Source of the DNA: an uncultured Solirubrobacteraceae bacterium
Lineage (GTDB): Bacteria > Actinomycetota > Thermoleophilia > Solirubrobacterales > Solirubrobacteraceae
Assembly: GCA_902806175.1 (NCBI GenBank)
Contig: CADCVQ010000070.1
Span: 1-64,000, forward strand
Length of the DNA stretch: 64,000 nt
Direction of reading: 5' to 3'
Shown here: in pieces, positions 1 through 22,416 of the stretch
Position numbering within the stretch: position 1 is the first letter of the stretch
Layout of the letters: each line of letters starts with the position of its first letter
Position numbers and translations under genes: made by a program
The notes under the pieces: generated by a model
Seen by the model: only the letters and a program-made list of their open reading frames with translations
The model's database searches: none
Told to the model about the DNA's origin: nothing

Positions 1-722
1 ACCGACCGCGGCGCCGCGGCGACCGGCTCGGGCTCAGGCTCGCGCTTCTTCGCGGCCTTGGCCTTGGCCTTCGCCGGGGCCGGCTCGGAGGCGGCGGGTG
101 CCGTCGCCGGGGCCTCGGAGGGCGCGCCCTCGGCGGCCTCAGGAGCGGTCGCGGTGGCGTCGGCCTCGTTGCCGGCCTCCTTGCCCGGGCCGAGCATCAT
201 CGTCATGTTGCGCCCGTCCTGCTGGGGGCGCTGCTCGACGACGGCCAGCTCTCCGAGCTCCTCGGCCAGGCGGTTGAGGATGATCTCGCCGCGCTCCGGG
301 TGCGCGACCTCGCGCCCGCGGAACATGATCGTGACCTTGACCTTGTCGCGATGGTTGAGGAACCGCGTGACGTGGCCCTTCTTGGTCGCGTAGTCGTGCT
401 CGGCGATCTTCGGGCGGAACTTGATCTCGCGCACCGTGATCTGCGTCTGGTGCTTGCGGGCCTGCTTCTCGCGCTGGTTCTTCTCGTACTTGTACTTCGA
501 GTAGTCCAGGACGCGGCAGACGGGCGGCTTGGCGTCGGGCGCGACCTCGACGAGGTCCAGCTCCCGGCTCTGCGCGTAGGCGAGGGCCTCGGACGTCTTC
601 ATGACGCCGACCTGCTCACCGTCGTCGCCGATGAGACGCACCTCGGGGACCCGGATGCGCTCGTTGATGCGGGTGTTGTCTCGCTCCGGCGGCTGCCGGT
701 CGAACCTGCGAGGGACCGGCAC
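1..722 (-). CDS. infC: Translation initiation factor IF-3 (partial, 3' end off the left edge)
   Basis: IF-3 binds the 30S subunit, prevents 70S association and checks start-codon pairing. The N-terminal domain begins with NTRINERIRVPEVRLIGDDG, typical of the family, and the C-terminal domain carries ITVREIKFRP and the MTMMLGPG end. After that the frame runs at least 60 residues more in an Ala/Pro/Glu/Lys-rich tail to the window edge with no stop; the usual length is about 180 residues. The start is taken as GTG at 722; no ATG lies between the upstream stop and the conserved core, and the ribosome site is weak. It follows thrS by 57 bases in the same reading frame, the classical thrS-infC order; rpmI and rplT would be expected next, outside the window. 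Confidence 0.93.
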   Translation of the reverse strand, partial: MPVPRRFDRQPPERDNTRINERIRVPEVRLIGDDGEQVGVMKTSEALAYAQSRELDLVEVAPDAKPPVCRVLDYSKYKYEKNQREKQARKHQTQITVREIKFRPKIAEHDYATKKGHVTRFLNHRDKVKVTIMFRGREVAHPERGEIILNRLAEELGELAVVEQRPQQDGRNMTMMLGPGKEAGNEADATATAPEAAEGAPSEAPATAPAASEPAPAKAKAKAAKKREPEPEPVAAAPRS

Positions 723-3815: not shown

Positions 3816-4984
3816 GAGCCACCGTCTGGTCGGGCCGCAACAAGGTCGCGGTCGAGAACGTGCCCGATCCGAAGATCCTCAGCGAGCGCGACGCGATCGT
3901 GAAGATCTCGTCGACGGCGATCTGCGGCTCGGACCTGCACCTCTACGACGGCTACATCCCGGCGATGCGCAAGGGCGACATCCTCGGCCACGAGTTCATG
4001 GGCGAGATCGTCGAGACCGGCAAGGGCGTGTCGAACCTCAAGGTCGGCGACCGTGTCGTGGTGCCGTTTCCGATTGCCTGCGGCTACTGCAACGCGTGCT
4101 CGCGCGGGCTGTTCTCGGTCTGCGAGAACTCCAACCCCAACGGCTCGATGGCCGAGAAGATGTTCGGCGACGCGCCATGCGGGATCTTCGGCTACTCGCA
4201 TCTCACCGGCGGCTACGCGGGCGGGCAGGCGGAGTACGCGCGGGTCCCGTTCGCCGACGTCGGGCCGATCAAGATCGACAACGGCCTCGAGGACGAGCAG
4301 GTGCTGTTTCTCTCCGACGTCTTTCCGACGGGCTGGATGGGCGCCGAGATGTGCAACATCCAGCCCGGCGACATCGTCGCCGTCTGGGGTTGCGGGCCCG
4401 TCGGGCAGTTTGCGATCGCGAGCGCGTACCTGCTGGGTGCCGAGCGGGTGATCGCGATCGACCGCTTCGAGTACCGCCTGAGGATGGCGCGCGAGAAGGC
4501 CGGCGCGGAGACGATCAACTACGAGCAGACGCCGGTCCGCGAGGCGCTGCGCGAGATGACCGGCGGCCGCGGGCCCGACCACTGCATCGAGGCCGTAGGC
4601 ATGGAGGCGCACCACCACAACCCCGGGATGTACGCCTACGACCGCGTCAAGCAGGCGGCGCGGATGGAGTCCGAGCGCGGCTACGCCGTGCGCGAGGCGA
4701 TCCTCAACTGCCGCAGCGGCGGCACGGTCTCGATCGCCGGCATCTACGGCGGCTTCATGGACAAGTTCCCGATCGGCGCCATCGTCAACAGGTCGCTGAC
4801 GATCAAGAGCGGGCAGTGCCACGTGCAGCGCTACCTGCGGCCGTTGCTCAACAGGATCGAGAACGGCGACATCGACCCGAGCTTCATCGTCACGCACCGG
4901 ATGTCGCTCGACGACGCCTCGAACGGCTACGAGACGTTCAAGCACAAGCAGGACGAGTGCGTGAAGGTCGTCCTCAAGCCATGA
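3812..4984 (+). CDS. Zinc-dependent alcohol dehydrogenase, glutathione-independent formaldehyde dehydrogenase-like
   Basis: Medium-chain NAD(P)-dependent dehydrogenase of 390 residues. The catalytic zinc ligands are Cys38 and His60 (with Glu61) in ICGSDLH and GHEFMGEIVE. Cys90, Cys93, Cys96 and Cys104 supply the structural zinc site. A Rossmann motif, VWGCGPVGQ, lies near residue 195. Long insertions around 105-130 and 265-300 match the formaldehyde/threonine dehydrogenase-like subgroup. The real substrate cannot be read from the sequence. It overlaps the SRPBCC gene by 4 bases and is followed by a strong hairpin, which makes a two-gene operon. Confidence 0.9.
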   Translation: MRATVWSGRNKVAVENVPDPKILSERDAIVKISSTAICGSDLHLYDGYIPAMRKGDILGHEFMGEIVETGKGVSNLKVGDRVVVPFPIACGYCNACSRGLFSVCENSNPNGSMAEKMFGDAPCGIFGYSHLTGGYAGGQAEYARVPFADVGPIKIDNGLEDEQVLFLSDVFPTGWMGAEMCNIQPGDIVAVWGCGPVGQFAIASAYLLGAERVIAIDRFEYRLRMAREKAGAETINYEQTPVREALREMTGGRGPDHCIEAVGMEAHHHNPGMYAYDRVKQAARMESERGYAVREAILNCRSGGTVSIAGIYGGFMDKFPIGAIVNRSLTIKSGQCHVQRYLRPLLNRIENGDIDPSFIVTHRMSLDDASNGYETFKHKQDECVKVVLKP

Positions 4985-4992
4985 CGGCGCGG

Positions 4993-5024
4993 CCGGCCGA
5001 TCCCGCTGCGGCGGGATCGGCCGG
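4993..5024 (+). terminator. Strong hairpin after the alcohol dehydrogenase gene
   Basis: A perfect 14-bp stem (CCGGCCGATCCCGC and its reverse complement) closes a four-base TGCG loop, starting 8 bases after the stop codon. There is no T-run, as is common for actinobacterial terminators. It separates the dehydrogenase operon from the Rpf-like gene. Confidence 0.7.
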
Positions 5025-5054
5025 TCCGTGACGTCGGTCACAGTTCGTACCCGA

Positions 5055-5072
5055 ACCGAACGGCTGTTCGGT
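5055..5072. promoter_or_regulatory. Inverted repeat, possible operator upstream of the Rpf-like gene
   Basis: ACCGAAC-GGCT-GTTCGGT is a 7+7 bp inverted repeat directly after the terminator and about 140 bases before the Rpf-like start. A TAGGGT hexamer 9 bases downstream could be a -10 element. The regulator is unknown; a short mRNA hairpin is the alternative. Confidence 0.35.
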
Positions 5073-5208
5073 CCGCTTGCTAGGGTCTTCTCCTCCAGCG
5101 GGCGATCACCAGGTGCCAATGGGCGCCGCAGCCCGCCGTAAACGACCGGCCACCTGCGCCGCGCGCACGTCGCGTGACGCCACCGGGCCGATGAAGGGCA
5201 CTACACAT

Positions 5209-5787
5209 ATGCGTCTCAGAACCCTGGGCGCCGTCTGCGTTTCGTGCGCAGCAGCGTCCACTTCCCCCGCAGCCGCGCAGTCTCCGAGCAGCAGCACCGA
5301 CGCGGCCGGCACCTCGACGGTCCGCCCTCCGGGCGACATGCACCGCGTCGCCAAGCGACAGCAGATCGACCGCCGGATGCACTACGCGCGCAAGCTCGCT
5401 CATCTGCGCAGCGACCCGCTGACGCGCGCCGAGCGCAGCCGCAAGCGCGCCGCCTTGCACACCTTCACCCTGAACGAGCTGCGCGCGTCGACGCGTCGCG
5501 CCGCGCGCGAGGTGCGACAGACGCGCAGCCGCCGCTTCGGCGGCGCGCCGAACGTGCCGATTCCGCCCGTGCTCGAGTCGATCGCGCAGTGCGAGTCGCA
5601 CGCCAATCCGCGCGCGATCTCCGCGGGCGGGACGTATCGCGGCAAGTACCAGTTCTCCTTCTCGACGTGGGCATCGGTGGGCGGCAGGGGCGATCCCGCC
5701 GCCGCGTCGGAGACCGAGCAGGATCGCCGCGCCGCGATGCTCTACAAGACCGGCGGCGCCGGCCACTGGCCCGTCTGCGGGCGCTGA
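5209..5787 (+). CDS. Secreted transglycosylase / resuscitation-promoting-factor-like protein
   Basis: A 192-residue protein with an N-terminal export signal ending near AAAQS, a basic middle rich in Arg and Ala, and a C-terminal Rpf/transglycosylase-like domain (about 125-192). Within it, IAQCESHANPRAIS carries the expected catalytic Glu, followed by GKYQFSFSTW and the closing GHWPVCGR. Family members cut peptidoglycan glycan strands and help dormant actinobacteria regrow. The start at 5209 is preferred over ATG 5191 because AAGGG lies about 10 bases upstream and the signal peptide then begins correctly. It appears monocistronic, with a leader of over 100 bases that I could not assign to a known riboswitch. 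Confidence 0.85.
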   Translation: MRLRTLGAVCVSCAAASTSPAAAQSPSSSTDAAGTSTVRPPGDMHRVAKRQQIDRRMHYARKLAHLRSDPLTRAERSRKRAALHTFTLNELRASTRRAAREVRQTRSRRFGGAPNVPIPPVLESIAQCESHANPRAISAGGTYRGKYQFSFSTWASVGGRGDPAAASETEQDRRAAMLYKTGGAGHWPVCGR

Positions 5788-10328: not shown

Positions 10329-11210
10329 ATGACGGGCGTGATCGAGACGTCGCAAGCGCTGTTCATGCGCGACGAGGTCGTGGCGGAGTACGCCACGTTC
10401 GACTTTCTCCTCGAACCCGAGCGGGTCATCCTGCGAAGGCTGGACGAGCTGTCTGCGATGCGGGTGCTCGACCTCGGCGTGGGCGGCGGCCGCACCACCT
10501 CCCAGCTGCTGGGGCGCGTCGGCCGATACGTCGGCGTGGACATGTCGCCGCTGATGGTGCAGGCGTGTCGTGAGCGCTTCGCCGACCGGCTCGGGAGCGA
10601 CGTGCGGTTCGCCGTCTGTGACGCGAGGGACCTGAGCGCGTTCGCGGACGACTCCTTCGACCTGGTCCTCTTCACGTTCAACGGCATCGACAGCGTCGTC
10701 CGCGACGACGATCGGCGCCGTGTGCTGCACGAGGTGCGGCGGGTGTGTGCCCCGGGTGCGACGTTCGCGTTCTCCAGCGACAACCTGCTCTTCGCCCGCC
10801 GGCGGATGCGCTTCGGCCCGGCGCTGCGGGCCGGGCTCGCCGGCGACGGCGGGCGCAGCCGGCTCGCGACCACCCGTCATGCCGTGGCTGGGACGTGGCG
10901 GCTGCGACGGGCCAACGCCCCGCTCCGGGGCCTGGATGGGCCGTACGCGCGATACGTCGTCGAGCGACCGGTGTTCGAGCTCAGCCCGCAGCACGTCGAG
11001 CGTCCCGGGGAACGGATCTGCGTCGACGGCTACTGCGTCGAGCCCGACGAGCAGCGCCGCCAGCTGCTGACGAGCGGGTTTGAGCGGGTTGAGCTGTTCG
11101 GCGTCGACGGAAGCGACGTGACGGGCGCGCCGGCAGAGCGGTTGGCCCGGTTCTCCTGGCTGTACTACGCGTGCCGCGCAGGGACGCCCGCAGCGCCCAG
11201 AGCAGGTTAG
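10329..11210 (+). CDS. SAM-dependent methyltransferase, first of two sister genes
   Basis: A 293-residue class I methyltransferase. [15 protein letters not shown] (about 47-60) is the SAM-binding motif [12 protein letters not shown] gives the acidic residue after beta-2, and [15 protein letters not shown] is the post-motif. The C-terminal third (from about 190, with [18 protein letters not shown]) is shared with the next gene and is not a standard SAM domain, so it may form the acceptor site. TAGTCT ends 6 bases before the ATG, giving a leaderless start. It is followed directly by its sister gene and an acyltransferase, just upstream of the lasso-type locus, where tailoring is possible but unproven. 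Confidence 0.85.
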
Positions 11211-12056
11211 ATGCACATCGAGTCGCCCGCAACGCACTTCGAGCGCGCGGACGTCGTCGCGGAGTACGGCTCGTTCGACTTCCTGCTCGCGCCCGAAGAG
11301 GACCTGTTGCGCGAGCACGCGAGCGAGCTGCCGCGGTGGCGCATGCTTGACGTGGGCGTCGGCGCGGGCCGCACGAGCGCGCACCTCATGGAGCGAGTGC
11401 GCGAGTACGTGGGCATCGACTGCTCAGCGGCGATGGTGCAGCGGTGCCACGAGCGCTTCGCCGGCCGCATGCCGGTCACCGCCTCCTTCCGGCAGGCCGA
11501 CGTGCGCACCCTCGTGGACTTCGACGAGGGCAGCTTCGACTTCGTGCTGTTCAGCTTCAACGGGCTCGACACCGTCGGCGACGGGAGCGAGCGCGCGCAG
11601 GCGCTGCGCGCGATCGCCCGCGTCTGCGCACCGGGAGCGCTGTTCTGCTTCTCCGCCCACAACCTGCTCTGGTTTCGCCGCTCGATCTCCCCGCTGCGCG
11701 CGGCCGCCGGTGCGCTCCCCGCTGCGCGACGCCATCCACGGGCACCGCTTCGCGCAGCGCGCGAGGCGCTGCACCGGCGGCGCCTGAACGCGCCCGGCGG
11801 CGGCCGCGGCGAGGAGCGCGTCATCATCGAGGAGCGGCCTCGTTACGAGCTCGCGCGCACGTTCTACCAGGCGCCCGACGAGCGGATCCTGATCAGCCGC
11901 TACACGACGACGCCCAAGCGGCAGGAGGAGAGGCTCGTCGCGGCCGGCTTCCGCGACTTGCGCATCCTCGACCTCCGCGGCAACGCGGTGGCCGCGGCCG
12001 ACGAGCGCTCGCAATGGCTGCACTACGTCTGCCGCCGGGCCGGAGACGACCGTTGA
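11211..12056 (+). CDS. SAM-dependent methyltransferase, second of two sister genes
   Basis: A 281-residue paralogue of the preceding gene. The two share the N-terminal ADVVAEYGSFDFLLAPEEDL-type block, motif I MLDVGVGAGRTSAHL, YVGIDCSAAMVQRC and the C-terminal RPRYELARTFYQAPDERILI block. The ATG is on the base after the preceding stop. Tandem paralogous methyltransferases suggest two methylations of one or two related substrates. The stop overlaps the TTG start of the acyltransferase. Confidence 0.85.
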   Translation: MHIESPATHFERADVVAEYGSFDFLLAPEEDLLREHASELPRWRMLDVGVGAGRTSAHLMERVREYVGIDCSAAMVQRCHERFAGRMPVTASFRQADVRTLVDFDEGSFDFVLFSFNGLDTVGDGSERAQALRAIARVCAPGALFCFSAHNLLWFRRSISPLRAAAGALPAARRHPRAPLRAAREALHRRRLNAPGGGRGEERVIIEERPRYELARTFYQAPDERILISRYTTTPKRQEERLVAAGFRDLRILDLRGNAVAAADERSQWLHYVCRRAGDDR

Positions 12057-13102
12057 GGGCGCGGGAACTGGCGCCCGCCGCGGACGCCCTCGAGCTGTTG
12101 TCGCTGCAGGGCGGTCCCTTCGATCACCCCGACGTGCGCGCCGCGCTCGCGGCAGCGTTTCCCGGCTGGCGCGAGGCCAGCTTCGGCACGCGCTTCGCGG
12201 ACGGCACCCTCGCCGCCATCGCGCTGCTGTGCGACGGCGCCCGCGCGGTGTCGCTTCCGTTCAACTACGGCGGCGTGCACGCGACCCGCGGTCTCGACGG
12301 CCGGGAGCTCCGGGCCCTCCTGGACGCCGCCCGCCGCAGCGCGGGCGCCCACACGATCGTGGTGCGCACGGTCGTACCGGGGACGCCCGGCGGGCACGAC
12401 AGGCACTTCGGCGGGCGGGTGGTCGGATGGACGTCCGTCGTGCGAATCGACACGACGGGCGACATCGAGGCGCGCGCGACGCGACTGGCGCGCAAGGCCA
12501 TCCGCCGCGCCCGCGAGCGCGGGGCGGCCGCTGCCCTCAGCGGCAGCCCCGAAGGCTTCCTCGCGCTGTACCGGACAGGCTCCGAAGCGCACTGGCTGCG
12601 CTATCCCGAGGGGCTGGTGCGCGACCTCGTTCACCACGACCGCGCAATGTGCTTCGACGTGCGCCTCGGCAACCGCGTGATCTCGTCGGTGCTCGCGCTC
12701 AAGGGCGCCTCGCACTGGATCGCGTGGCTCGCCGCGCAGGACGAAGCCGGGCGGGCGATCGGCGCCAACTACCTCGCCACCGCGACGCTGCTGGCGCATG
12801 CACAGGCGGCACACGTCCGTGCCGTGGACCTCGGCTCGAGCACGGGCACGCCGGGGGTCGCGCTGTTCAAACGCCGCTTCGGCGCGTTCGACGTCGCCGT
12901 GCACGAGTTCCGGCAGTCCTCGCCGCGGGGGCTCGCGGCGGCCCAGACCGCGATCGCGCGCGAGCGCCTCGTGCGGGCAGGGCGGCGGGCGCGGCGCCGC
13001 GCGCTGCGCCGGGCTCGATCCACGGCGGGCGGGCGGGCGAAGGCGCCGGCGGCGATCGCGTCGACGCGCGCAGCGGCGCTTCGGCGGGCACCTGCCGGCT
13101 AG
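12053..13102 (+). CDS. FemAB/GNAT-type acyltransferase
   Basis: A 349-residue protein. DALELLSLQGGPFDHPDVRA near the start and the C-terminal half (LYRTGSEAHWLRYPEGLVRD, ALKGASHWIAWLAA, IGANYLATATLLAHA, VDLGSSTGTPGVALFKRRFG) match the BioF2/FemAB-like acetyltransferase fold, in which GVALFKRRFG is the typical closing motif. Such enzymes transfer acyl or aminoacyl groups to amines in cell-wall or natural-product assembly. The TTG start overlaps the previous stop (TTGA), so it is coupled to the two methyltransferases. It ends 27 bases before the promoter of the lasso-type precursor. Confidence 0.75.
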   Translation: MRARELAPAADALELLSLQGGPFDHPDVRAALAAAFPGWREASFGTRFADGTLAAIALLCDGARAVSLPFNYGGVHATRGLDGRELRALLDAARRSAGAHTIVVRTVVPGTPGGHDRHFGGRVVGWTSVVRIDTTGDIEARATRLARKAIRRARERGAAAALSGSPEGFLALYRTGSEAHWLRYPEGLVRDLVHHDRAMCFDVRLGNRVISSVLALKGASHWIAWLAAQDEAGRAIGANYLATATLLAHAQAAHVRAVDLGSSTGTPGVALFKRRFGAFDVAVHEFRQSSPRGLAAAQTAIARERLVRAGRRARRRALRRARSTAGGRAKAPAAIASTRAAALRRAPAG

Positions 13103-13128: not shown

Positions 13129-13158
13129 TTGACGCCGTCTGAAGCCCGGGCGTAGTAT
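13129..13158 (+). promoter_or_regulatory. Sigma70-type promoter of the lasso-type locus
   Basis: TTGACG at 13129-13134 and TAGTAT at 13153-13158 are separated by 18 bases, an unusually good match for this GC-rich DNA. It lies about 80 bases before the precursor ATG, leaving a 5' leader of about 74 bases. Confidence 0.65.
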
Positions 13159-13238
13159 GCGCGGCCACGTAGCCGGAATACGGGGCATCGCTTGGGCGGC
13201 TGGGTGCAGGAGTGTCGACGATGGATGAAGGAGCGCGG

Positions 13239-13388
13239 ATGAAGATCGCATACGAGGCGCCGGAGATCGCCGACTACGGTTCGATCGCCGACCATACGTT
13301 CGACAATCCCGGTCAGGGCAACAAGTCCGCTACTCCGATGGCCACAGACAAGTTCGGGGAGTTCTCACACCCGTTCACGAGCCCGTAG
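13239..13388 (+). CDS. Lasso-type RiPP precursor peptide
   Basis: Encodes 49 residues; AAGGAG lies 5 bases before the ATG (ATG 13221 is an in-frame alternative). The leader MKIAYEAPEIADYGSIADHT fits the lasso rule YxxPxLxxxGxxxxxT recognised by the B1 protein, with Thr20 expected at leader position -2. The region after Phe21 is 28 residues (22-49): DNPGQGNKSATPMA (22-35), then TDKFGEFSHPFTSP (36-49). Measured from Asp22, positions 7-9 are Asn, Lys and Ser, so the usual Asp/Glu ring acceptor is missing. If cleavage instead fell before Lys29, Ser30 or Ala31, Asp37 would sit at position 9, 8 or 7. Cyclase, RRE, kinase, peptidase and exporter genes follow on the same strand. Confidence 0.82.
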   Translation: MKIAYEAPEIADYGSIADHTFDNPGQGNKSATPMATDKFGEFSHPFTSP

Positions 13389-13424
13389 ATCGCCGAGCTC
13401 GATTCGGCGTCATCAGTGATCGAC

Positions 13425-13450
13425 GATCGGGTCCCTTCAGGGATCTGATT
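13425..13450 (+). terminator. Hairpin between precursor and cyclase, possible attenuator
   Basis: An 11-bp stem with three G-T pairs closes a TTCA loop 36 bases after the precursor stop and is followed by CGTTTCG. A partial terminator here would keep precursor mRNA in excess over the enzyme genes, as is usual in lasso clusters. Confidence 0.5.
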
Positions 13451-13497
13451 CGTTTCGGGCAGGCTGGTCGATCCGGCGCGTCCGAGGCAGGGATGTC

Positions 13498-15273
13498 ATG
13501 GGAGCGATAGGGGCGTACCTCGCCGCCTCGGCGCGGCCGTCGACACGCCCCGCCGAGGCGATGACCGCCGCCGTGCCGCACCGCGGCGAGCGCCGCGAGA
13601 CGTTCTTGCATGGCCGGTGCGCGCTCGCCTGCGTCAACGGCGCAGGCCCCGACGACGCCGAACTGGGCGTGGCGTGCGGAATCGCCGCGGCCTTCGCCGG
13701 GACGCTCGACAACGCCGCCGATGTCGAGCGCGACCTTGTCCGGCGGCGGTTGCTCGCCGCCGGAAGCAGCCGTGCCGAGCTGATCGCGACTGGATTCGCC
13801 GCCTACGGCGAGGATCTCCCCGGCCGCCTGCGCGGCGTGTTCTCCGCCATCGTCACGGACGGCCGGCGAGCGTACGCCTTCCGCGACCACCTCGGCTACG
13901 GCCTGCTGTTCTACCGAGAGGACGCGCACGGCTTCTACGCCGCGACCGAGGCAAAGCAGGTCGTCGCGGGCGCTGGGATCCGCCGCGAGCCCGACCTCGA
14001 CGTCGTCGACAGCATCTTCTTCAACACCTACGGCGACGACACGCCGTGCGCGCTGCGCGGCGTCCGCCGGCTGCCGAAGTCCCACGGCATCACCGCCGGC
14101 CCCGCCGGCCTGAAGCTTCGGCGCTATTGGGATCCCGAGGCGCTGCTCGAGAGCGCCCGGATCTCCGACGTCGACCTCCAGGATCGCTTCGCGGAGCTGT
14201 TCGACCAGGCGGTGTCGCGCTGCCTGACCGGCGCCGACGTCATATCGCTCAGCGGCGGGATCGACTCCCCAGCCGTCGCGGCGTTCGCGGCACCACGCCA
14301 CCTCGAGCTGAGCGGGCGCCCGCTGCAGGCCCTGTCGGCCGTCTACCCGCGCTATCCGTCCGTCGACGAGCGGGCGTACATCGAGCTGCTCGCCGAGCAC
14401 TTCCAGATCCCGCTGCACACGTTCGAGCAGCAGGCCAACATGCTTGACGACCTCGCCCACTGGGTGGCCCTGTCGGACGGTCCGTTTCCCGCCGCCGCTC
14501 TGGCGCACTACGCCGAGGACTACGGGCTGGCGCGCCGACTCGGCTTTCGGAGCATCCTGACCGGCGAGCATGCGGAGTTCGTCTTCGCGCTCAACTGGTA
14601 CGTCGTCGACCACTACCTGAGCCACGGCCGGCTGCACGACCTCCGGCGCCACCTCGACGCGCGCCGCGCGAAGGGCGCATCCTGGCGACGGCTGGCCAAA
14701 GACGTCGCGCGCGGCGTGGCGCCGGGCAGGCTGCTCGCGGCACGCGAACGCCGCACCCGGCTCGGGTTGCCGGCCTGGATCGACAGCGCCAGGGCCAGCG
14801 AGGGCCTGGCGAACGGCATCGCCTCCGCGCGTCAGCGCTGGCGGCGACTGCAGCTATCGGCCTTTTACGGTCCCGGGCTGTCGGCGGAGGCCGAAGCGAT
14901 CTGCCAGGCCGCGTGCGGCGTTCGTGCCCGGCGGCCATGGACCGACGTCGACCTGTTCGAGCTCTTCCTCGGCCTGCCCGCCGCGCAGAAGTTTCCGGAC
15001 CTGGGGGGCAAGAGCCTCGTCAAGCGCTTCATGCGCGGCCGCGTCCCCGACGCGATCCTCGACCGCAAGGGCAAGACGGTCTTCGACGAGGCGCTGCTCG
15101 CACAGATCGACTACGTGACGCTGCGACGCTTCCTGATCGAGCCTGCGCACCGGCTGGCCGGCGTCGACTACAGGGCGCTCGCCGAGCGGCTGCGTCGCGA
15201 GGATCTCGAACGGGCGGACTACCAGTACGCCAGGCAGCTCGCCGGCGTGCACGCGTTCCTCGCGCAATGGTGA
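13498..15273 (+). CDS. Lasso-type macrolactam cyclase (asparagine synthase-like, C protein)
   Basis: A 591-residue asparagine-synthase-like protein. The N-terminal third resembles the Ntn glutaminase domain but lacks the N-terminal catalytic Cys, as expected for a cyclase that does not use glutamine. The ATP-pyrophosphatase loop SLSGGIDS is intact at about 250-257. The second motif, GEGADE in asparagine synthetase, reads LTGEHAEF at 354-361: the first Glu is kept, but Asp and the following Glu have become Glu and Phe. In lasso clusters this enzyme adenylates the acceptor carboxylate and closes the ring on the core N-terminus. Its stop overlaps the ABC ATPase start (TGATG). Confidence 0.85.
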   Translation: MGAIGAYLAASARPSTRPAEAMTAAVPHRGERRETFLHGRCALACVNGAGPDDAELGVACGIAAAFAGTLDNAADVERDLVRRRLLAAGSSRAELIATGFAAYGEDLPGRLRGVFSAIVTDGRRAYAFRDHLGYGLLFYREDAHGFYAATEAKQVVAGAGIRREPDLDVVDSIFFNTYGDDTPCALRGVRRLPKSHGITAGPAGLKLRRYWDPEALLESARISDVDLQDRFAELFDQAVSRCLTGADVISLSGGIDSPAVAAFAAPRHLELSGRPLQALSAVYPRYPSVDERAYIELLAEHFQIPLHTFEQQANMLDDLAHWVALSDGPFPAAALAHYAEDYGLARRLGFRSILTGEHAEFVFALNWYVVDHYLSHGRLHDLRRHLDARRAKGASWRRLAKDVARGVAPGRLLAARERRTRLGLPAWIDSARASEGLANGIASARQRWRRLQLSAFYGPGLSAEAEAICQAACGVRARRPWTDVDLFELFLGLPAAQKFPDLGGKSLVKRFMRGRVPDAILDRKGKTVFDEALLAQIDYVTLRRFLIEPAHRLAGVDYRALAERLRREDLERADYQYARQLAGVHAFLAQW

Positions 15274-16307
15274 TGTCCGGTTCAATAGGCGAGATGACCG
15301 ACGTCGCTGACGCCGACGCGACGCCAGCACCGGCTCGGCGCGCCGCGGTCGCCGGCCCGGCGGTCCTCGATGCTCGCGAGGTGTCGCAGCGCTTCGGGCC
15401 GACGACGGTCCTGCGCGATGTCTCGCTGACGATCCGCGCCGGCGAGATCCACGCGCTGCTCGGGCCCAACGGCGCCGGCAAGACGACGCTCATCCGGATC
15501 CTGGCAGGACTCCAGCACCCGACGGCCGGCAGCGTCGAGATCGCCGGCTTTCACCCATCGGCGAACGCGCGCCTGTTCCGGCAGCAGATCGGGTTCGTCG
15601 CCTCCGGCGACCGAACCTTCTACCTGCGGATCTCCGGGCTCGAGAACCTCGTGTTCTTCGCCCGCCTGCACGGCATGACACGCCGTCAGGCGATCCGCCG
15701 CTCCGAGGAGGTGCTCGCGGATGTGGGGCTCGCCGAGGCGACGCGAAAGCCGGTCGGCACATACTCCCACGGCATGCAGAAGCGGCTCTCGGTGGCGCGC
15801 GCGCTGCTGACCTCTCCCGCGGTCATGCTGATCGACGAGGCGACGCACGACCTCGATCCCGACGCCGCGCGGCGCGTGCGCGAGCTCGTGGCCGCGGCCG
15901 CGGCGCGCGGGGCCGCGGTCGTCTGGGTGACCCAGCGTCTGGAGGAGATCCGCGGGTTCGCGGACGAGGTCACGCTCCTGGACGCCGGCCGGGTGCGATT
16001 CTCCGGCACCGTGCCGCAGCTCATGTCCCACGCCGCGCCGCGGCGCTACCTTCTTCACCTCGAGCACGACGGCCACGACTCGCGCGTGCTGCTCGCCGCG
16101 CGGGCGGCGCTGGCGCCGCGGGCGACCCTCACCCCGATCGGCGACGGTGCGTCCGGCCACCACGCGCTGTCGCTCGCCGCGGAGGTCGTCCTCGGTGACG
16201 CGCTCGGCACCCTGGCCGCGGCCGGGGTGCGGCTGCTCTCCTGCCAGGAGGAACGGTCGGAGATCGAGGAGGCGTTCCTGCTGCTGGTGGACGAGGGCGG
16301 CGCATGA
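15273..16307 (+). CDS. ABC transporter ATP-binding protein of the lasso-type locus
   Basis: A 344-residue ATPase. Walker A is GPNGAGKTT, the signature is YSHGMQKRLSVARAL, and Walker B is VMLIDEATHDLDP, where Ala replaces the usual Pro. The switch position reads WVTQRLEEI, with Gln in place of the conserved His. The C-terminal extension resembles DrrA/CcmA-type drug exporters. The start ATG 15273 overlaps the cyclase stop; ATG 15294 is an alternative. With the permease it probably exports the mature peptide and may give self-immunity. Confidence 0.88.
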   Translation: MSGSIGEMTDVADADATPAPARRAAVAGPAVLDAREVSQRFGPTTVLRDVSLTIRAGEIHALLGPNGAGKTTLIRILAGLQHPTAGSVEIAGFHPSANARLFRQQIGFVASGDRTFYLRISGLENLVFFARLHGMTRRQAIRRSEEVLADVGLAEATRKPVGTYSHGMQKRLSVARALLTSPAVMLIDEATHDLDPDAARRVRELVAAAAARGAAVVWVTQRLEEIRGFADEVTLLDAGRVRFSGTVPQLMSHAAPRRYLLHLEHDGHDSRVLLAARAALAPRATLTPIGDGASGHHALSLAAEVVLGDALGTLAAAGVRLLSCQEERSEIEEAFLLLVDEGGA

Positions 16308-17152
16308 CCACGGTGCCGTTGCCGACCGGGCCGCTGGCCACGATTCGCGGCGAGGCCGGCAAGCTGTCGGCGTTCCTGCGGCGCGACCTCCTCGAGGCCT
16401 GGAGCTACCGGCTCGCGTTCGTCGCCGACGCCGTCAACATGGGGCTGCAGGCACTGCTGTTCTTCTACATCGGCCGGATCGTCGATCCGAGCGCGCTGCC
16501 CTCCTACGGAGACGGGCAGATCAGCTACTTCGAGTTCGTGCTCGTCGGCATCGCGATCACGATGGTCGTCGGTGTCGGCATGTTCCGCGCGGCAGCCGCG
16601 TTTCGCAACGAGCAGCTCATGGGCACCCTCGAGGTGCTCCTGATGACGCCGACGAGCGCCGCCACGATTCAGATCGGCTCCGTCGTCTACGACCTGGTGT
16701 ACGTGCCGCTGCGGACCGGGCTGTTCTTCCTTGCCGTCACGCTGGCCGCCGACGTCGACGTCAACGCGGCGGGGATCCTGCCGGCCATCGTGGCGCTGCT
16801 GTGCTTCATCCCGTTCGTGTGGGGCCTGGGCATCCTCTACGCGGCGTCCACGGTGACGTTCAAGGTGGCCGGCGGCGGCTTCGCCGTGTCCATCCTCACG
16901 ATGACGTCAGGGGCCTACTTCCCGCTCTCGGTGCTGCCCGGCTGGCTGGCGCAGCTATCCGAGCTGAACCCGATGACCCTTGCGGTCGACGCGATGCGCG
17001 AGACGCTTCTGGGGCAGGGCGGATGGTCGGAGGTCGGCGGCGCGCTGCTCGTCCTCGGGCCGGCTTCCCTCTTGACGCTCGCTGCGGGCATCGTCGCCTT
17101 CCGCGCCGCGCTCGTGCGGGAGCGGCGCCGCGGAACGCTCGGCCTCTACTGA
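16304..17152 (+). CDS. ABC-2 type permease of the lasso-type locus
   Basis: A 282-residue integral membrane protein with about six hydrophobic segments (for example ALLFFYIGRIV, GLFFLAVTLAA, AIVALLCFIPFVWGLGILYA) typical of the ABC-2 family. GAYFPLSVLPGWLAQLSELN is the common motif before the last segments. The ATG overlaps the ATPase stop by ATGA. It should form the membrane half of the exporter with the preceding ATPase. Confidence 0.87.
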   Translation: MTTVPLPTGPLATIRGEAGKLSAFLRRDLLEAWSYRLAFVADAVNMGLQALLFFYIGRIVDPSALPSYGDGQISYFEFVLVGIAITMVVGVGMFRAAAAFRNEQLMGTLEVLLMTPTSAATIQIGSVVYDLVYVPLRTGLFFLAVTLAADVDVNAAGILPAIVALLCFIPFVWGLGILYAASTVTFKVAGGGFAVSILTMTSGAYFPLSVLPGWLAQLSELNPMTLAVDAMRETLLGQGGWSEVGGALLVLGPASLLTLAAGIVAFRAALVRERRRGTLGLY

Positions 17153-17164
17153 AAGCAGGCGCCC

Positions 17165-17449
17165 TTGATCGGTCCCGAATCCAAGCTCCGCCGCAACCCG
17201 GATGTGGTTTCGCGCGATCTCGCCGAGGGCGAGGGCGGCGTGCTGCTGCACATGGTCTCGGGCCAGTACCACGGCGTCAATCCCGTCGGCCTGGCCATCT
17301 GGAAGCTCATCGAGGACGGCTGCACGGTGGGGAGCGTCATCGATCGCCTGCGCGATCGCGTGGAGGAGCCCCCGGCGAACCTCGACGATGACGTCCTGCG
17401 CTTCCTGACGAGCGTCCACGAGCGAGACCTCCTCGTCGTCGAGCGGTGA
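17165..17449 (+). CDS. PqqD-like RiPP recognition element (lasso B1 protein)
   Basis: A 94-residue winged-helix RRE. It has the PqqD pattern: GGVLLHMVSGQYHGVNPVG, the AIWKLIEDGCTV helix and DDVLRFLTSVHERDLLV. In lasso systems this protein binds the YxxPxLxxxG leader motif and hands the precursor to the B2 peptidase and the cyclase. The TTG start at 17165 lies 12 bases after the permease stop, with a weak AGG ribosome site. The stop overlaps the kinase GTG start (GTGA). Confidence 0.83.
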   Translation: MIGPESKLRRNPDVVSRDLAEGEGGVLLHMVSGQYHGVNPVGLAIWKLIEDGCTVGSVIDRLRDRVEEPPANLDDDVLRFLTSVHERDLLVVER

Positions 17450-18357
17450 CGACCGAGCCCAGCCCGGGGACGTGCTTCGGGTTCGCCGTCCGCTCGTCGC
17501 TGCCGTTTGAGTACCTTCGCGTGGGCGCCGGCACGCCGCTCGACGTCTCGGCTTCCTCAGCCGTGCCGGACGGCGACGGCGGCGAGGTGCTCTTGCAATG
17601 GGCACCGTCGTCGCGCTTCCCGCTGGCGGGACGCCTCATCCGTGCCGCCCCGGGCTTCCGCCTCTGGGTCGACACGTGGGGCTGGTTCCTCGTCGATCCC
17701 GATGCCCCGCGCGTGACGCTGCCGGACACGCCGAACGTCATCCGTCGCGAGGAGCGTCTGTGGAGCATCCCGGCGATGCTCTGCTTCCTCGCGCGCGGTG
17801 ACACCGCCCTGCACGCCGCCGCCGTGGAGGTCGACGGGCAGGCGGTGGTGCTCGCCGCCCCTGGGACCTGCGGCAAGACGACGCTCGCCGCCGCCTTCCA
17901 TTCCGCCGGCTACCGGCTGCTCAGCGAGGACACGACCTGCGTGCGGGCGCACGATCGACCGCTCGTCGTTCCCGGACCCGCCATGCTGCGCCTGCGCCAC
18001 GACGTCGCCGACCAGCTCGAGGTCCCGAACGCGACGCCGGTCGGCAACGTCGAGGACGATCGCGTCCATCTGGCGCTGGATCCCGCGACGCGCGGTGACG
18101 GCAGCCCGCTCGCACTTCGCGCGATCGTCCTGCTGCGGCAGGCCGACGACGGCTTGCGCATGCAACGCGTCCCGGCGCCGCACGCCTTGCGCGACCTGTG
18201 GGCGCTCAGCTTCCGGTTGCCCACGGACCGCGATCGGGCGCGATGCTTCGCGGCCGTGGCGGATCTCGCCCGCGCGGTGCCGCTCTGGAACCTCTACCGG
18301 CCGCTGACGATACGCGACCTCCCGGCCACCGTGGAGTTCGTGGCTCGCCATGCCTAG
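17446..18357 (+). CDS. HPr-kinase-like peptide kinase of the lasso-type locus
   Basis: A 303-residue protein. The second half has the HPr kinase/phosphorylase fold: ALHAAAVEVDG, then a P-loop at 138-146 (APGTCGKTT), then RLLSEDTTCV with the metal-binding acids. The first about 110 residues are typical of RiPP-cluster kinases and absent from true HprK. Homologues in paeninodin-type clusters phosphorylate the C-terminal Ser of a lasso precursor. Here the precursor ends Thr-Ser-Pro, so Ser48 is penultimate. It starts with GTG overlapping the B1 stop and overlaps the B2 gene by 8 bases. Confidence 0.8.
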   Translation: MTTEPSPGTCFGFAVRSSLPFEYLRVGAGTPLDVSASSAVPDGDGGEVLLQWAPSSRFPLAGRLIRAAPGFRLWVDTWGWFLVDPDAPRVTLPDTPNVIRREERLWSIPAMLCFLARGDTALHAAAVEVDGQAVVLAAPGTCGKTTLAAAFHSAGYRLLSEDTTCVRAHDRPLVVPGPAMLRLRHDVADQLEVPNATPVGNVEDDRVHLALDPATRGDGSPLALRAIVLLRQADDGLRMQRVPAPHALRDLWALSFRLPTDRDRARCFAAVADLARAVPLWNLYRPLTIRDLPATVEFVARHA

Positions 18358-18760
18358 GGGGGTGCCCGGGCGGCTGCGGTTCTGGCACAAGGTGCGTCTC
18401 GCCGTCCGCGTGTGGCGGACGTACGCTCGGGTCAAGGTGGGGCTCCGGCGCCGGCCCCTGCCCGCGTTGGTCGGAGAGCTTGGCCGCACGGCTGTCCGCG
18501 GCGACGCGCACCCGCCCGCGCGGCTGAGCGTGGCCGTGCACCGCGGCCTCCGGTTCGGGCCGCTTCGCCCCCGATGTCTCACGAGCTCGCTGGTCCTCTA
18601 CCGGCTGCTGCGGGAGCAGGGCGACGAGGCCGAGCTGGTCATCGGCCTGCCACCGGACGCGCGCGAACATGCCGCTCATGCGTGGATCGAGCTCGCCCAG
18701 CGCGACGTCGGCCCGCCGCCCGGGCGTGGCCGCCACGATCCGATCGCGCGCTTCCCGTGA
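18350..18760 (+). CDS. Lasso-type leader peptidase (transglutaminase-like B2 protein)
   Basis: A 136-residue transglutaminase-like cysteine protease. Cys76 in PRCLTSSLVLYRLLREQG and His110 in AHAWIEL occupy the catalytic positions. The third residue, usually an Asp shortly after the HAW motif, is not obvious, and the C-terminus is Pro/Arg-rich. B2 removes the leader, normally two residues after the conserved Thr. It is the last gene of the locus. 50 bases separate it from the convergent metallopeptidase gene. Confidence 0.83.
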   Translation: MPRGVPGRLRFWHKVRLAVRVWRTYARVKVGLRRRPLPALVGELGRTAVRGDAHPPARLSVAVHRGLRFGPLRPRCLTSSLVLYRLLREQGDEAELVIGLPPDAREHAAHAWIELAQRDVGPPPGRGRHDPIARFP

Positions 18761-18810: not shown

Positions 18811-21800
18811 TCATCTGACCGTGAAACGAACCTTCCTCGCAGCGGAGCGGTTGCGCGCCGCGTCGGTCGCGACGAGCGTCGCGGTGTAGCTGCCGCGGCG
18901 CAGACCCGCCGCGCTCAGCGCCAGCACGCCGGCGCCCGCCTTCATCGAGCGCGTCGTCGTGCCCGCCGGCGCCTGGCGCGTGCAGCGCCTGCCCTTGCGC
19001 AAGAGCGCGACGCAGCGCGTGCCTCGGCGCACGCCCCGCGCCGAGCGGGTCAGCACGACCTTGACCGCCGCCGGCTCGCTGAGCCTGAACCGCAAGGTCG
19101 CCCGCCGGCGGCCGCGGCGCGTGGCCCTGGTCAGCCGCACGGCCAGGCCGCTCAACACCGGCTTGACGCGATCGCCGTCCGGGCTCACGTCCGGCCGCGG
19201 CGCGGTCGGGGCCGTCCCACCGCCGCCGTCCGCCGCCGCTGTCGTGAACGTGGCGTCGGTGCCCGCCACCGCCACGACGCCGCCCTCGCGGATCGCCTCA
19301 GCGCGGTAGTGGTACGTCGTGCTCGCAGCCAGGCCGGTGAGCGCCGCGACCCCGGCGACCGCGGCGTCGCCGGCGCCGACGTCCTGCACCGCGGTGCTCG
19401 CGCCGTACGCCGGCGTCGTGCCGTAGGAGAAGCGCAGCCCCGTAGCGCGGCCGTTGGGTGCGACGCTGCCGTTGAGCGTCGCCGCGGCGGCGCCGACGCC
19501 CGTCGCGCTGCCGGTCGCCGCGGCGGGAATCTCGACGCGCCCGCAGGGGACCTGCGGCGAGTCCAGGCCCCAGCGCCGCAGCTGACCGCTGTCGGACGGG
19601 AACGTGTCGGTGATCCGCAGCGTCCACGTCCCGGCCGCCGGCTGCCCGTCGAAGGCCGACAGCAGACCGGCCGGCCGCACCCTCCCCGTGATCGGGGCGG
19701 TTGCCGTGCTCGGCAGCGCGGCGGCCTCGTCGTCGAAGATCGCGTCGATGATGTCATCGCCCGCGAAGTTCGCGTTGCCGAACCGGTCGGTGATGACGAC
19801 CGTGACCCCGTTGTGCACGAGCGCGATCTGGAGGTCTCCCAGGAAGCTGTGGCGCAGCTCGTCGATGCGCAGGTTGACGTCGGTGATCGCGCCGCCGACC
19901 GGGACGGTGAACGGCGCCGCGACCGTCTGCGCGACCGGCGCCTCCGATGTCCCCCTGGCGTCTGCGAGTGCGACAACGGTGTCGGAGGCCGGGCGCGGGT
20001 CGACCCTGGCGCTCGCGACGGCGCCGCCCTCGCTCGACGTCACCGTGATCGTCAGCGGGCTCGCCGTCGCGCACGTGTCCGCCGGCAGGCGGGCGGCGAG
20101 CTCGTCGCCGTTGACGGCGCTGCGCCCCCTGCCGAGCAGCGGCCACGCGGCGCTGGCGTCCTCGATCGTCACGGCCGGGTTCGTGGAGCTCAGCGTGCCC
20201 GTCACGCCGGACAGGTCGCCGAGCCCGATCCCCTGGATCGACTGGTCGACGAGGAAGCGCTCGCCGGGCTCGATCCGCCCGTCGTTGTCACCTCCGGGAT
20301 AGGGATCGCGCAGCGTCGCCGAGCGCGCCCGCAACCCGGCGGGCGCTGCGAAGCCCTCCGTCGGGTTCGTCGTCGCCGCGCTGGGCGTGCTGGCGTTCGC
20401 GCCCATTCCGCGAGCGGCGAAGATCGCCCACAGCGCCCCGTAGTGATCGTCGGCGGCGCCCGGGGCACTGCGCATGGCGATCGCCTGCTGCAGGATCGCG
20501 TCGCGCATGTCGAGCATCGACGGATTGGGTGCGGATAGTCGCATCCCGCCGGTGATGAGCGCCAGCGCGACGTTGCGGCCGAGCGCGCTGCGGATGTCCC
20601 ACAGCGTCTGCGTCCACACCTCGCCGCCGTTGTGCGGCGTGGTGTTGTTCGTGACCGCGAGATCGCCGTACGTGTAGCCGCCGGGCACCGACGTCGCCGT
20701 GCCGTTGGCGTTGCAGCCGGCGATGCCGGCCGGGTCGACGGGGCAATCGGTCGGCTTGCGGCGCACACCGCCGGGGATGACGTATCCGCCTGACGTCACC
20801 TCCGCGGGAGCGGCGGTGTCGACGACCGAGCCCTCGGCCTCGAGCAGGTCGAGGGCGTAGAGGTCACTCCAGGCCTCCCCCATCATGGAACCCTGGATCG
20901 AGCTCAGCGTCGAGCTGCCGGACGCGTTGACGACGAGCCGGTTGCTCAGGCCGTGGCCGTACTCGTGGTAGACGATGTCGGCGATGTCGCTGCCGTTCGC
21001 GTCGCGCGTCGTGAACAGGAACATCTGCATGCGCGGTGCCAGCCCGTCGGGCGGCGTCGACATGTTCGCGTTGTTGACGCCCTGGCCGTCGTTGACCTCG
21101 CTGCGGACGTAATCGCCCCCGAGGCCCTGGCCGCTCGTGTTCGTGCGCTGGAAGTTGCCGGCGGCCTCGTCGAAGCCGATCGGCGCCGCCGCGAGATGGT
21201 CGTGGAAGCGGCTGACGAGGACGTGCAGGTTCGAGCCCGCCTGGAACTGGTTGGTGGCGCGCGTCGTCACGTCGTCGGAGTTCCACGTGCAACCGGTGGC
21301 CGGGCACGGCGTGGCCCCCGGGAAGCTGTGACTCTGGGTGTAGAGCCAGTCGGGCGCGGCTGGAGCGCCGCCGCTGGCGGGGATCTGCACGCGCGTGCCG
21401 CCGGCCTCGTCGCCGGCGGCCGGGTCCTCATCGGCGGGGTCGACGTACGTGCGCGAGAACTGACCCCACAGGCGTGTGCCGCTTGCGTGTTCGTCATACC
21501 ACGCCGGCGGCATGGTGACCTGCGTGGGGACGGGCGTGTGATCGGGATCGCGCGCGAAGTACCGGTTCTCGCCGAGATGGTGCGTGAGGTCCTGGCGGCG
21601 CAGCAGCGCGCCGTCGCGGGCGCCCACGAGGACCTCGTAGCCGTGACCGTCGTCGCCCTCGGTGATCACCTGCCAGGCGAGGACGGGCCCGGCCGCGGTC
21701 GCGCTCCAGCGCAGCCGCGCGCGCTCGCCGGTGGCGAACGTCGTGATCCGGCTCGGGCCGGGCGAGATCTCGGTCGGGCGGGGCGGAAGCCCGGCGCCGC

Positions 21801-22416
21801 GCGCGGCACGGCGGGCCGCACCCAGGCCGGCGAGCGCATCGAGCGCAGGCTTGGTGGTGGCGAGCTCGGCCCCCGGCAGCGGCGCGCCGGCGACGCTGAT
21901 GAGCCGGCCGTCCCTGGTCACGTGCGCCGCGAGGCCGCTGTCGAAGGCGTGGATGGCGTCCAGGACCTGGTTGAAGCGCAGGTGCGTGATGCCGTCCGGG
22001 CTGACGTCGCGCGCGACCAGCACGAGGTTGTCGACGTCGGCCTTCGCCAGTCCGAAGACCTCGCCGTGATCGCGGACGTAGTCCAGCGCGATCTGGCGCG
22101 GATCGTCTGACGAGGGTCCGGTGAGCAGGCCCGAGGGGCTGCCGACGTACGACACGGCGCCGCTCGCGGGGGCCGTGCGGACGTCCCCGAGCGGACCCAG
22201 GTCGCGCTCCAGGGCGCGCCGCGCGGCCCGCGTCTGGCGCGGCACGGTGGCGGGGGCCGCCGCGCGCCGGTCGATGTTCGGCAGGCCCTCCTGCGCGGGT
22301 GCCGGCGCAGACGCGGCGATGCCCGGCGGCGCGGTAAGCGCCGTCACCAGCACGACCAGGGCGCAGGTGAGCAGGCGTCTTTGAGTCATCGCGGCGCGGC
22401 GCTTCCGGATTGGCAT
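18811..22416 (-). CDS. Secreted M36 (fungalysin-type) zinc metallopeptidase with C-terminal domains
   Basis: A 1201-residue exported protease. A basic N-terminus and a hydrophobic stretch ending near GIAAS form the signal peptide (ATG 22389 is an alternative start). An FTP-type propeptide follows. The zinc motif HEYGH is at 484-488, with EAWSD as the third-ligand region. After the catalytic domain come a P/proprotein-convertase-like beta domain (LRIDELRHSFLGDLQIALVH, ending WTLRITD), a fibronectin-like domain (YGTTPAYGAS, TTYHYRAEA) and a basic C-terminal beta domain ending RKVRFTVR. It should digest extracellular protein. It lies 79 bases after the carboxylase beta gene on the same strand but probably has its own promoter. 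Confidence 0.9.
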   Translation of the reverse strand: MPIRKRRAAMTQRRLLTCALVVLVTALTAPPGIAASAPAPAQEGLPNIDRRAAAPATVPRQTRAARRALERDLGPLGDVRTAPASGAVSYVGSPSGLLTGPSSDDPRQIALDYVRDHGEVFGLAKADVDNLVLVARDVSPDGITHLRFNQVLDAIHAFDSGLAAHVTRDGRLISVAGAPLPGAELATTKPALDALAGLGAARRAARGAGLPPRPTEISPGPSRITTFATGERARLRWSATAAGPVLAWQVITEGDDGHGYEVLVGARDGALLRRQDLTHHLGENRYFARDPDHTPVPTQVTMPPAWYDEHASGTRLWGQFSRTYVDPADEDPAAGDEAGGTRVQIPASGGAPAAPDWLYTQSHSFPGATPCPATGCTWNSDDVTTRATNQFQAGSNLHVLVSRFHDHLAAAPIGFDEAAGNFQRTNTSGQGLGGDYVRSEVNDGQGVNNANMSTPPDGLAPRMQMFLFTTRDANGSDIADIVYHEYGHGLSNRLVVNASGSSTLSSIQGSMMGEAWSDLYALDLLEAEGSVVDTAAPAEVTSGGYVIPGGVRRKPTDCPVDPAGIAGCNANGTATSVPGGYTYGDLAVTNNTTPHNGGEVWTQTLWDIRSALGRNVALALITGGMRLSAPNPSMLDMRDAILQQAIAMRSAPGAADDHYGALWAIFAARGMGANASTPSAATTNPTEGFAAPAGLRARSATLRDPYPGGDNDGRIEPGERFLVDQSIQGIGLGDLSGVTGTLSSTNPAVTIEDASAAWPLLGRGRSAVNGDELAARLPADTCATASPLTITVTSSEGGAVASARVDPRPASDTVVALADARGTSEAPVAQTVAAPFTVPVGGAITDVNLRIDELRHSFLGDLQIALVHNGVTVVITDRFGNANFAGDDIIDAIFDDEAAALPSTATAPITGRVRPAGLLSAFDGQPAAGTWTLRITDTFPSDSGQLRRWGLDSPQVPCGRVEIPAAATGSATGVGAAAATLNGSVAPNGRATGLRFSYGTTPAYGASTAVQDVGAGDAAVAGVAALTGLAASTTYHYRAEAIREGGVVAVAGTDATFTTAAADGGGGTAPTAPRPDVSPDGDRVKPVLSGLAVRLTRATRRGRRRATLRFRLSEPAAVKVVLTRSARGVRRGTRCVALLRKGRRCTRQAPAGTTTRSMKAGAGVLALSAAGLRRGSYTATLVATDAARNRSAARKVRFTVR

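Follow-up and report, generated by a model that had tools for sequence, protein, structure and literature searches.

The 64,000-nucleotide stretch analysed here (the window: positions 1 to 64,000 of contig CADCVQ010000070.1, from the 4.12 Mb, 183-contig assembly of an uncultured Solirubrobacteraceae bacterium) carries what is, to judge from its sequence, a real bacterial gene cluster of the lasso type, directing the synthesis of a small cyclised peptide. Across this cluster and ten related ones, eleven in all, the acid predicted to close the ring is separated from the leader by 7 to 22 residues more than in lasso peptides described so far, and the ring would therefore need a new starting end or a new mode of formation. 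The window peptide thus appears to be lasso-type and not a canonical lasso peptide; the label is chosen because a ring position in the canonical register was looked for and not found, though every gene is shared. The genes, the clade, the canonical leader geometry and the conservation of the displaced acids and of a serine can all be read from the sequences. The interpretation to which we lean, tentatively, is a distinct clade of lasso-type RiPPs (ribosomally synthesised and post-translationally modified peptides) whose ring core is displaced by a spacer, with an 8-residue ring from Ser30 to Asp37.

The leaders of the clade follow the pattern Y..P.[IVL]...GSI..[HR]TF, and the Tyr (Phe in two) precedes the Thr by exactly 15 residues in 11/11 clade precursors and in 21/21 precursors from ordinary lasso loci of the same class; T(-2) is invariant in the clade, at the canonical distance from YxxP. 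The nine residues that follow T20-F21 in the window precursor are D N P G Q G N K S. A recount of this precursor agrees with the preliminary description, which had placed Asn-Lys-Ser at positions 7-9 and found only D37 and E41 as later acids. Counting from two residues after the leader Thr, an acid occurs at 7-9 in 2/11 clade precursors compared to 19/21 of the ordinary ones (Fisher p 9e-5, for sequences that are not fully independent). As a control, the sequences of the ordinary loci show that the 7-9 rule does hold in this class and that it is the clade that deviates. The missing acid had been described from one precursor; on the alignment it is a feature of the clade and not a quirk of that sequence, holding for the window and for 9/11 members in all, though not absolutely, as L105 and L096 have Asp7. 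Asp7 was rejected as the acceptor of the family, N or T standing there in the nearest relatives, and a reversed bond between Asp1 and Lys8 was rejected since residue 1 is elsewhere Q, R, A, I, V or T.

A search with the precursor across the order returned only that of the window, and the relatives therefore had to be sought through the B2 leader peptidase (in 399 genomes of the same class) and through the cyclase. This gave ten further loci (L065/L091, L072, L079/L090, L089, L092/L098, L096, L097, L105, L106 and L108), and the clade spans Actinomycetota and Chloroflexota. Its cyclases score 678-999 bits against the clade profile, those of other lasso loci no more than 180, and in a tree of 30 cyclases the eleven form one clade with support of 100/100. 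The nearest neighbours of the window cyclase in this tree are L089, from a Chloroflexota genome, and L105 and L106, from genomes of the class of L089; this points to horizontal movement of the cluster between phyla. No plasmid or viral relatives were found.

The cyclase itself starts Met1-Gly2 in place of Met-Cys and so lacks the amidotransferase nucleophile, as do enzymes that use their substrate's own amine, while its synthetase half retains SGGIDSP. It scores 125 bits against NF033535, far under the cut-off of 525. An AlphaFold2 model built from the eleven clade members has a pLDDT (predicted local distance difference test score) of 90, and the solved folds closest to it are the hydroxyamidotransferase TsnB9, beta-lactam synthetase and AsnB.

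Beyond a variable spacer, 10/11 clade precursors share the block [D/E]37-x3-4-E41-x-S43-[C/H]-[P/G] (Table 2), of which E-x-S-[CH]-[PG] has per-sequence shuffle probabilities of 0.001-0.01. Motif counts were anchored on E-x-S because the MAFFT alignment misplaces L097. The residue at Asp37 is Asp in nine and Glu in one of the ten aligned members, followed in two of them by a one-residue indel, and it lies four or five residues before the block Glu in 10/11; E41 and S43 are kept in all ten. The preliminary description had proposed aligning homologues for a conserved Asp at 37, and had named the lack of any conserved acid among residues 22-49 as evidence against its model; the alignment yields conserved acids at 37 and 41, the former 8-9 residues after a Lys in 8/10.

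A Lys precedes the first acid in all ten. The distance from Lys to first acid is 6-10 residues (standard deviation about 1) compared to 14-30 (4.5) from leader to acid, a pattern that is no more than suggestive. In the closest pair, L072/L079, the amino acid changes are confined to leader and spacer and stop at the Lys before the block: the spacer holds four non-synonymous and two synonymous changes, the 17 codons after the Lys none and eight (one-sided hypergeometric 0.015). In the six members with cysteines, one Cys stands three (once four) residues before the first acid and, in 5/6, another at E+3; the window, L105, L089 and L106 have neither, having lost the two together. Ring-side and tail-side cysteines covary. 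We read the C-terminal block as the functional unit and the spacer as a dispensable linker, which would favour a ring of 8-9 residues that starts directly behind the Lys and ends at Asp37.

From this we infer a course of phosphorylation, cleavage, linkage, threading and export. The RiPP recognition element (RRE) would bind the YxxPxI leader and pass the precursor to the kinase and the B2 peptidase. The kinase probably phosphorylates Ser43, proposed as its target because no other hydroxyl residue of the block is invariant; phosphorylation of lasso precursors by HprK-like kinases occurs on a C-terminal Ser or on Ser3, while the leader is still attached (PMC10368454). The core would then start at or just after Lys29, either because B2 cuts there or because it cuts at Phe21/Asp22 and the end is afterwards trimmed back. 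The cyclase would adenylate Asp37 and join it to the new N-terminus at Ser30, leaving an 8-residue ring and the tail KFGEFSHPFTSP, and the expected product would be SATPMATDKFGEFSHPFTSP minus water; in the Cys-bearing relatives a ring-tail disulfide would hold the tail. Export would be by the ABC-2 pair.

Several observations weigh against a ring from Ser30 to Asp37. T(-2)-F(-1) at canonical spacing in 11/11 predicts a cut at F21/D22 and not after K29, and no dedicated second protease is common to the loci. Glu41 is conserved at least as well as Asp37, and L108, whose precursor is divergent, lacks the block. The distance from Lys+1 to the first acid is 8 or 9 in 8/10, but 6 in L096 and 10 in L065, outside 7-9. 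The Lys pattern was noticed post hoc and has a corrected p of 0.02 for ten sequences and 0.13-0.14 for the seven less related, and the window/L105 and L089/L106 pairs do not show the codon contrast of L072/L079. The preliminary description had suggested either a longer leader with the ring closed on Asp37, or a larger ring or different bond; a displaced core and Asp37 as a candidate acceptor both find support here, but simple lengthening of the leader does not fit the invariant T(-2), and Glu41 is a candidate as well.

If B2 makes the usual cut at Thr(-2), the core starts at Asp22, so that either the ring is large or its amine comes from Lys29. The cyclase clade would then break the rule that joins residue 1 to residue 7-9, bonding an acid 14-34 residues away as a large macrolactam or a Lys isopeptide, a RiPP topology not described before; we regard this pair of solutions, taken together, as doubtful, though a serious contender. 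As a large macrolactam, the amine of Asp22 would be joined to Asp37 or Glu41 in a ring of 16 or 20 residues in the window (14-30 or 19-34 across the clade), which would not be a classical lasso. The invariant T(-2) and exact leader geometry in 11/11 favour this, as does the recurrence of x-[NT]-P at residues 1-3 in several members, and no extra protease would be necessary. However, a single enzyme clade would have to make rings differing about two-fold in size, no segment of L072/L079 is less constrained than the spacer, and the recurrent Lys is left without an explanation; lasso rings of characterised structure are of 7-9 residues (PMC13352647), and one of ten has been made in vitro (PMC8498205). 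On balance a large ring seems unlikely. A bond from the side chain of Lys29 to Asp37 (or Glu41), with residues 22-28 as an N-terminal tail, would account both for T(-2) and for a Lys 6-10 residues ahead of the acid, again with no second cut. Yet the Lys pattern is weakly significant after correction and we know of no lasso-type cyclase that uses a Lys side chain, and so we consider this an improbable solution.

Alternatively, the core might begin at Met34 (Cys, Phe or Tyr in relatives) or one residue earlier and close on Glu41 in an 8- or 9-residue ring with the tail FSHPFTSP, the expected product being MATDKFGEFSHPFTSP minus water. Glu41 is invariant in 10/10, every one of the six Cys members has a Cys exactly 7 or 8 residues ahead of it, and in the window a Thr (T32) occupies -2 relative to Met34. 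That Thr is not kept in L105, L072, L079, L092 or L097, however; the tail of L065 would be five residues only, the spacing from Cys to Asp37 is steadier than that from Cys to Glu41, and the conservation of Asp37 would go unexplained, so that this register, too, is improbable. The loss of the acid at 7-9 and the retention of a kinase in nine loci might also be read as the remains of a decayed or re-purposed cluster that makes a phosphorylated linear peptide with no ring. As the cyclase is conserved at full length in 11 loci, with SGGIDSP intact and a confident fold model, and all genes are open, we think this most improbable.

The promoter-like site, precursor, cyclase, RRE, B2, kinase and exporter that the preliminary description had placed on one strand are all present where it had put them. 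The elements lie on the + strand from 13129 (Table 1): promoter-like site, precursor, a 110-nucleotide gap with a hairpin, and six genes that are tightly packed and in part overlapping. The precursor start is preceded by the ribosome-binding site GAAGGAG and relatives begin in register, which led us to reject a frameshift or wrong start; a chance open reading frame was rejected on the ten homologues beside the same cyclase type and the many synonymous codon changes in closest-relative pairs.

Table 1. Elements of the lasso-type locus in the window
Feature	Position	Strand	Remark
Putative sigma-70-like promoter TTGACG-18 nt-TAGTAT	13129..13158	+	9/12 consensus; 1 found vs 0.2 expected in shuffles
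Precursor peptide gene, 49 aa, ATG start	13239..13388	+	homologues beside same cyclase type in ten loci
Leader residues 1-21, Y5..P8.I10...G14SI..H19T20F21	13239..13301	+	canonical lasso spacing Y-17/P-14/I-12/T-2
Spacer residues 22-29 (DNPGQGNK)	13302..13325	+	length and sequence vary between relatives; recurrent Lys at end
Proposed 8-residue ring segment S30-D37 (inferred)	13326..13349	+	acid conserved at D37 in 10/10 aligned relatives
Proposed loop/tail KFGEFSHPFTSP	13350..13385	+	invariant E41 (13359-13361) and S43 (13365-13367)
Stable hairpin in the precursor-cyclase gap, lacking a terminator T-run	13422..13454	+	z -2.4
Asn-synthase-like macrocyclase (C protein)	13498..15273	+	PF00733, 99 bits; SGGIDSP motif; no N-terminal Cys nucleophile
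ATP-binding cassette (ABC) exporter ATPase	15273..16307	+	start overlaps cyclase stop (TGATG)
ABC-2 exporter permease	16304..17152	+	PF01061
RRE/B1, PqqD-like leader-binding protein	17165..17449	+	PF05402; TbiB1 5v1u E 3e-6
HprK-like peptide kinase	17446..18357	+	TIGR04352 E 9e-14, score far under the cut-off
B2 leader peptidase	18350..18760	+	NF033537 56.7 bits vs cut-off 33; catalytic Cys (RC[LI]) and His (HAW) conserved; clade-specific DxGPPPG segment

Table 2. Post-leader sequences of the eleven clade precursors
Locus	Sequence
Window	DNPGQGNKSATPMATDKFGEFSHPFTSP
L105	DNPGKGDKSSEPMETDKFGEYSHPFAS
L089	QTPGKGTKSTDTTFVTDKYHEFSHPASGS
L106	QTPGEGTKSSDTTYELDKYGEYSHPAGS
L096	DTPGVGDKGTCGYDPMFGEPSCPSD
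L097	DTPPVGSPGGGDNKGFVNCRIEETNCELSHPGS
L065	ARAQIPITVCIPDPNPNQNKQGDTRICKLDKFCEYSCPS
L072	IHTNPQGHVVHKDHIVCETDKFGEYSCGSSHGGSCDNVKSR
L079	VHTNKTGHTVHKDHIVCETDKFGEYSCGSHGGSVGSSG
L092	TNTGEVPGVGPQGKDPHGCATTDKFGEPSCGDHGLS
L108 (divergent)	RTPWRRTKWRHHHGENDHHDEECGLTPVLTTVTT

Lasso PqqD models match the RRE at E 1e-8, yet under the curated cut-off, and NCBIfam lasso leader models likewise match the leader under cut-off; such matches of RRE and cyclase to narrow lasso models are as expected of a remote clade. A kinase was found in 9/11 clade loci, none being seen in L092 and L106 within the stretch covered, and all the clade kinases have a GKT P-loop and an ED motif. A D-x-G-P-[PA]-P-G segment follows the catalytic His of B2 in the window, L065, L072, L079, L089, L096, L097 and L105, and is absent from ordinary B2 proteins of the same class; it may mark an altered cleavage specificity. 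Some relatives encode further proteins between RRE and B2, with NTP_transf_5 and/or methyltransferase domains (L089 9085-11830, where the two are fused; L105 9066-10385; L106 1-2384), and L097 has a PRMT/PrmA-like methyltransferase at 4047-5336; extra tailoring is a possible role. Just upstream of the window operon lie overlapping frames that encode two class I methyltransferases and one GNAT/FemAB-like protein (10329-13102, +), and convergent with it a secreted M36 fungalysin-like metallopeptidase with a P-domain (18811-22416, -); these were rejected as parts of the cluster, having no homologue in the ten related loci. L108 (149-4065) has two HprK-like kinases flanking one cyclase and its His-rich precursor, and a second leader-like frame is cut off at the contig end.

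The ordinary loci of the same class (e.g. L051, L052, L055 and L056) share leader geometry and gene set with the clade, but their cyclases belong to other clades and share about 30% identity or less with that of the window. One of them, L055 (G000:C22:5829-22149), is a second lasso locus of the same genome, with its own RRE, B2, kinase and cyclase and the core VVQQGSEEVGVKSNVVKVA, which has Glu7/8. L061, L068, L070 and L074, reached through B2 matches, have an RRE, an asparagine-synthase-like cyclase and an ABC pair, and no frame with a YxxPx[ILV]xxxG leader was found in them; they may hold another unusual type of precursor. The cyclases of L061, L063, L068 and L074 form a separate clade.

Among described systems, the split B1/B2 loci with an HprK-like kinase (paeninodin, pseudomycoidin and the Bradymonas BsfA type) have the same RRE, B2, cyclase and kinase and YxxPxI at -17/-14/-12. 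The clade differs from the paeninodin type in having its acceptor acid off positions 7-9 after the cleavage signal in 9/11 and in a kinase P-loop and ED motif unlike the published G-G-G-K-S-D-D pattern; the window precursor, moreover, ends in Pro, without a C-terminal Ser, its invariant Ser43 being internal. The class III lasso peptide BI-32169 has a ring Cys6, an acceptor Asp9 and a ring-tail disulfide, which L065, L072, L079 and L096 resemble with C-x-x-D followed by a tail Cys; unlike BI-32169, the clade has a spacer after the leader, and the window and three relatives have no Cys. The LPP RiPPs of Bacillota likewise have an RRE-recognised leader, and a phosphorylation site has been mapped in them too, but they have a WxxP leader and a signal-peptidase-like LppS (PMC13381572), whereas the window locus has YxxP, B2 and a cyclase. 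No description of a lasso clade with a displaced core was found in the open-access literature searched, which is not proof of absence.

The rules by which genomes are mined for lasso peptides take it that an acid follows the Thr(-2) cleavage site at a distance of 7-9 residues. The clade described here, present in two phyla, has the full machinery and keeps the Thr signal, but most of its precursors do not comply, so that such clusters would be missed or assigned the wrong core. The clade also raises the question of what sets the register of cleavage and cyclisation: the Thr of the leader, the size of the ring or the acceptor motif. If it is true that the ring is large or that a Lys side chain is used, the enzyme family would make a new type of bond.

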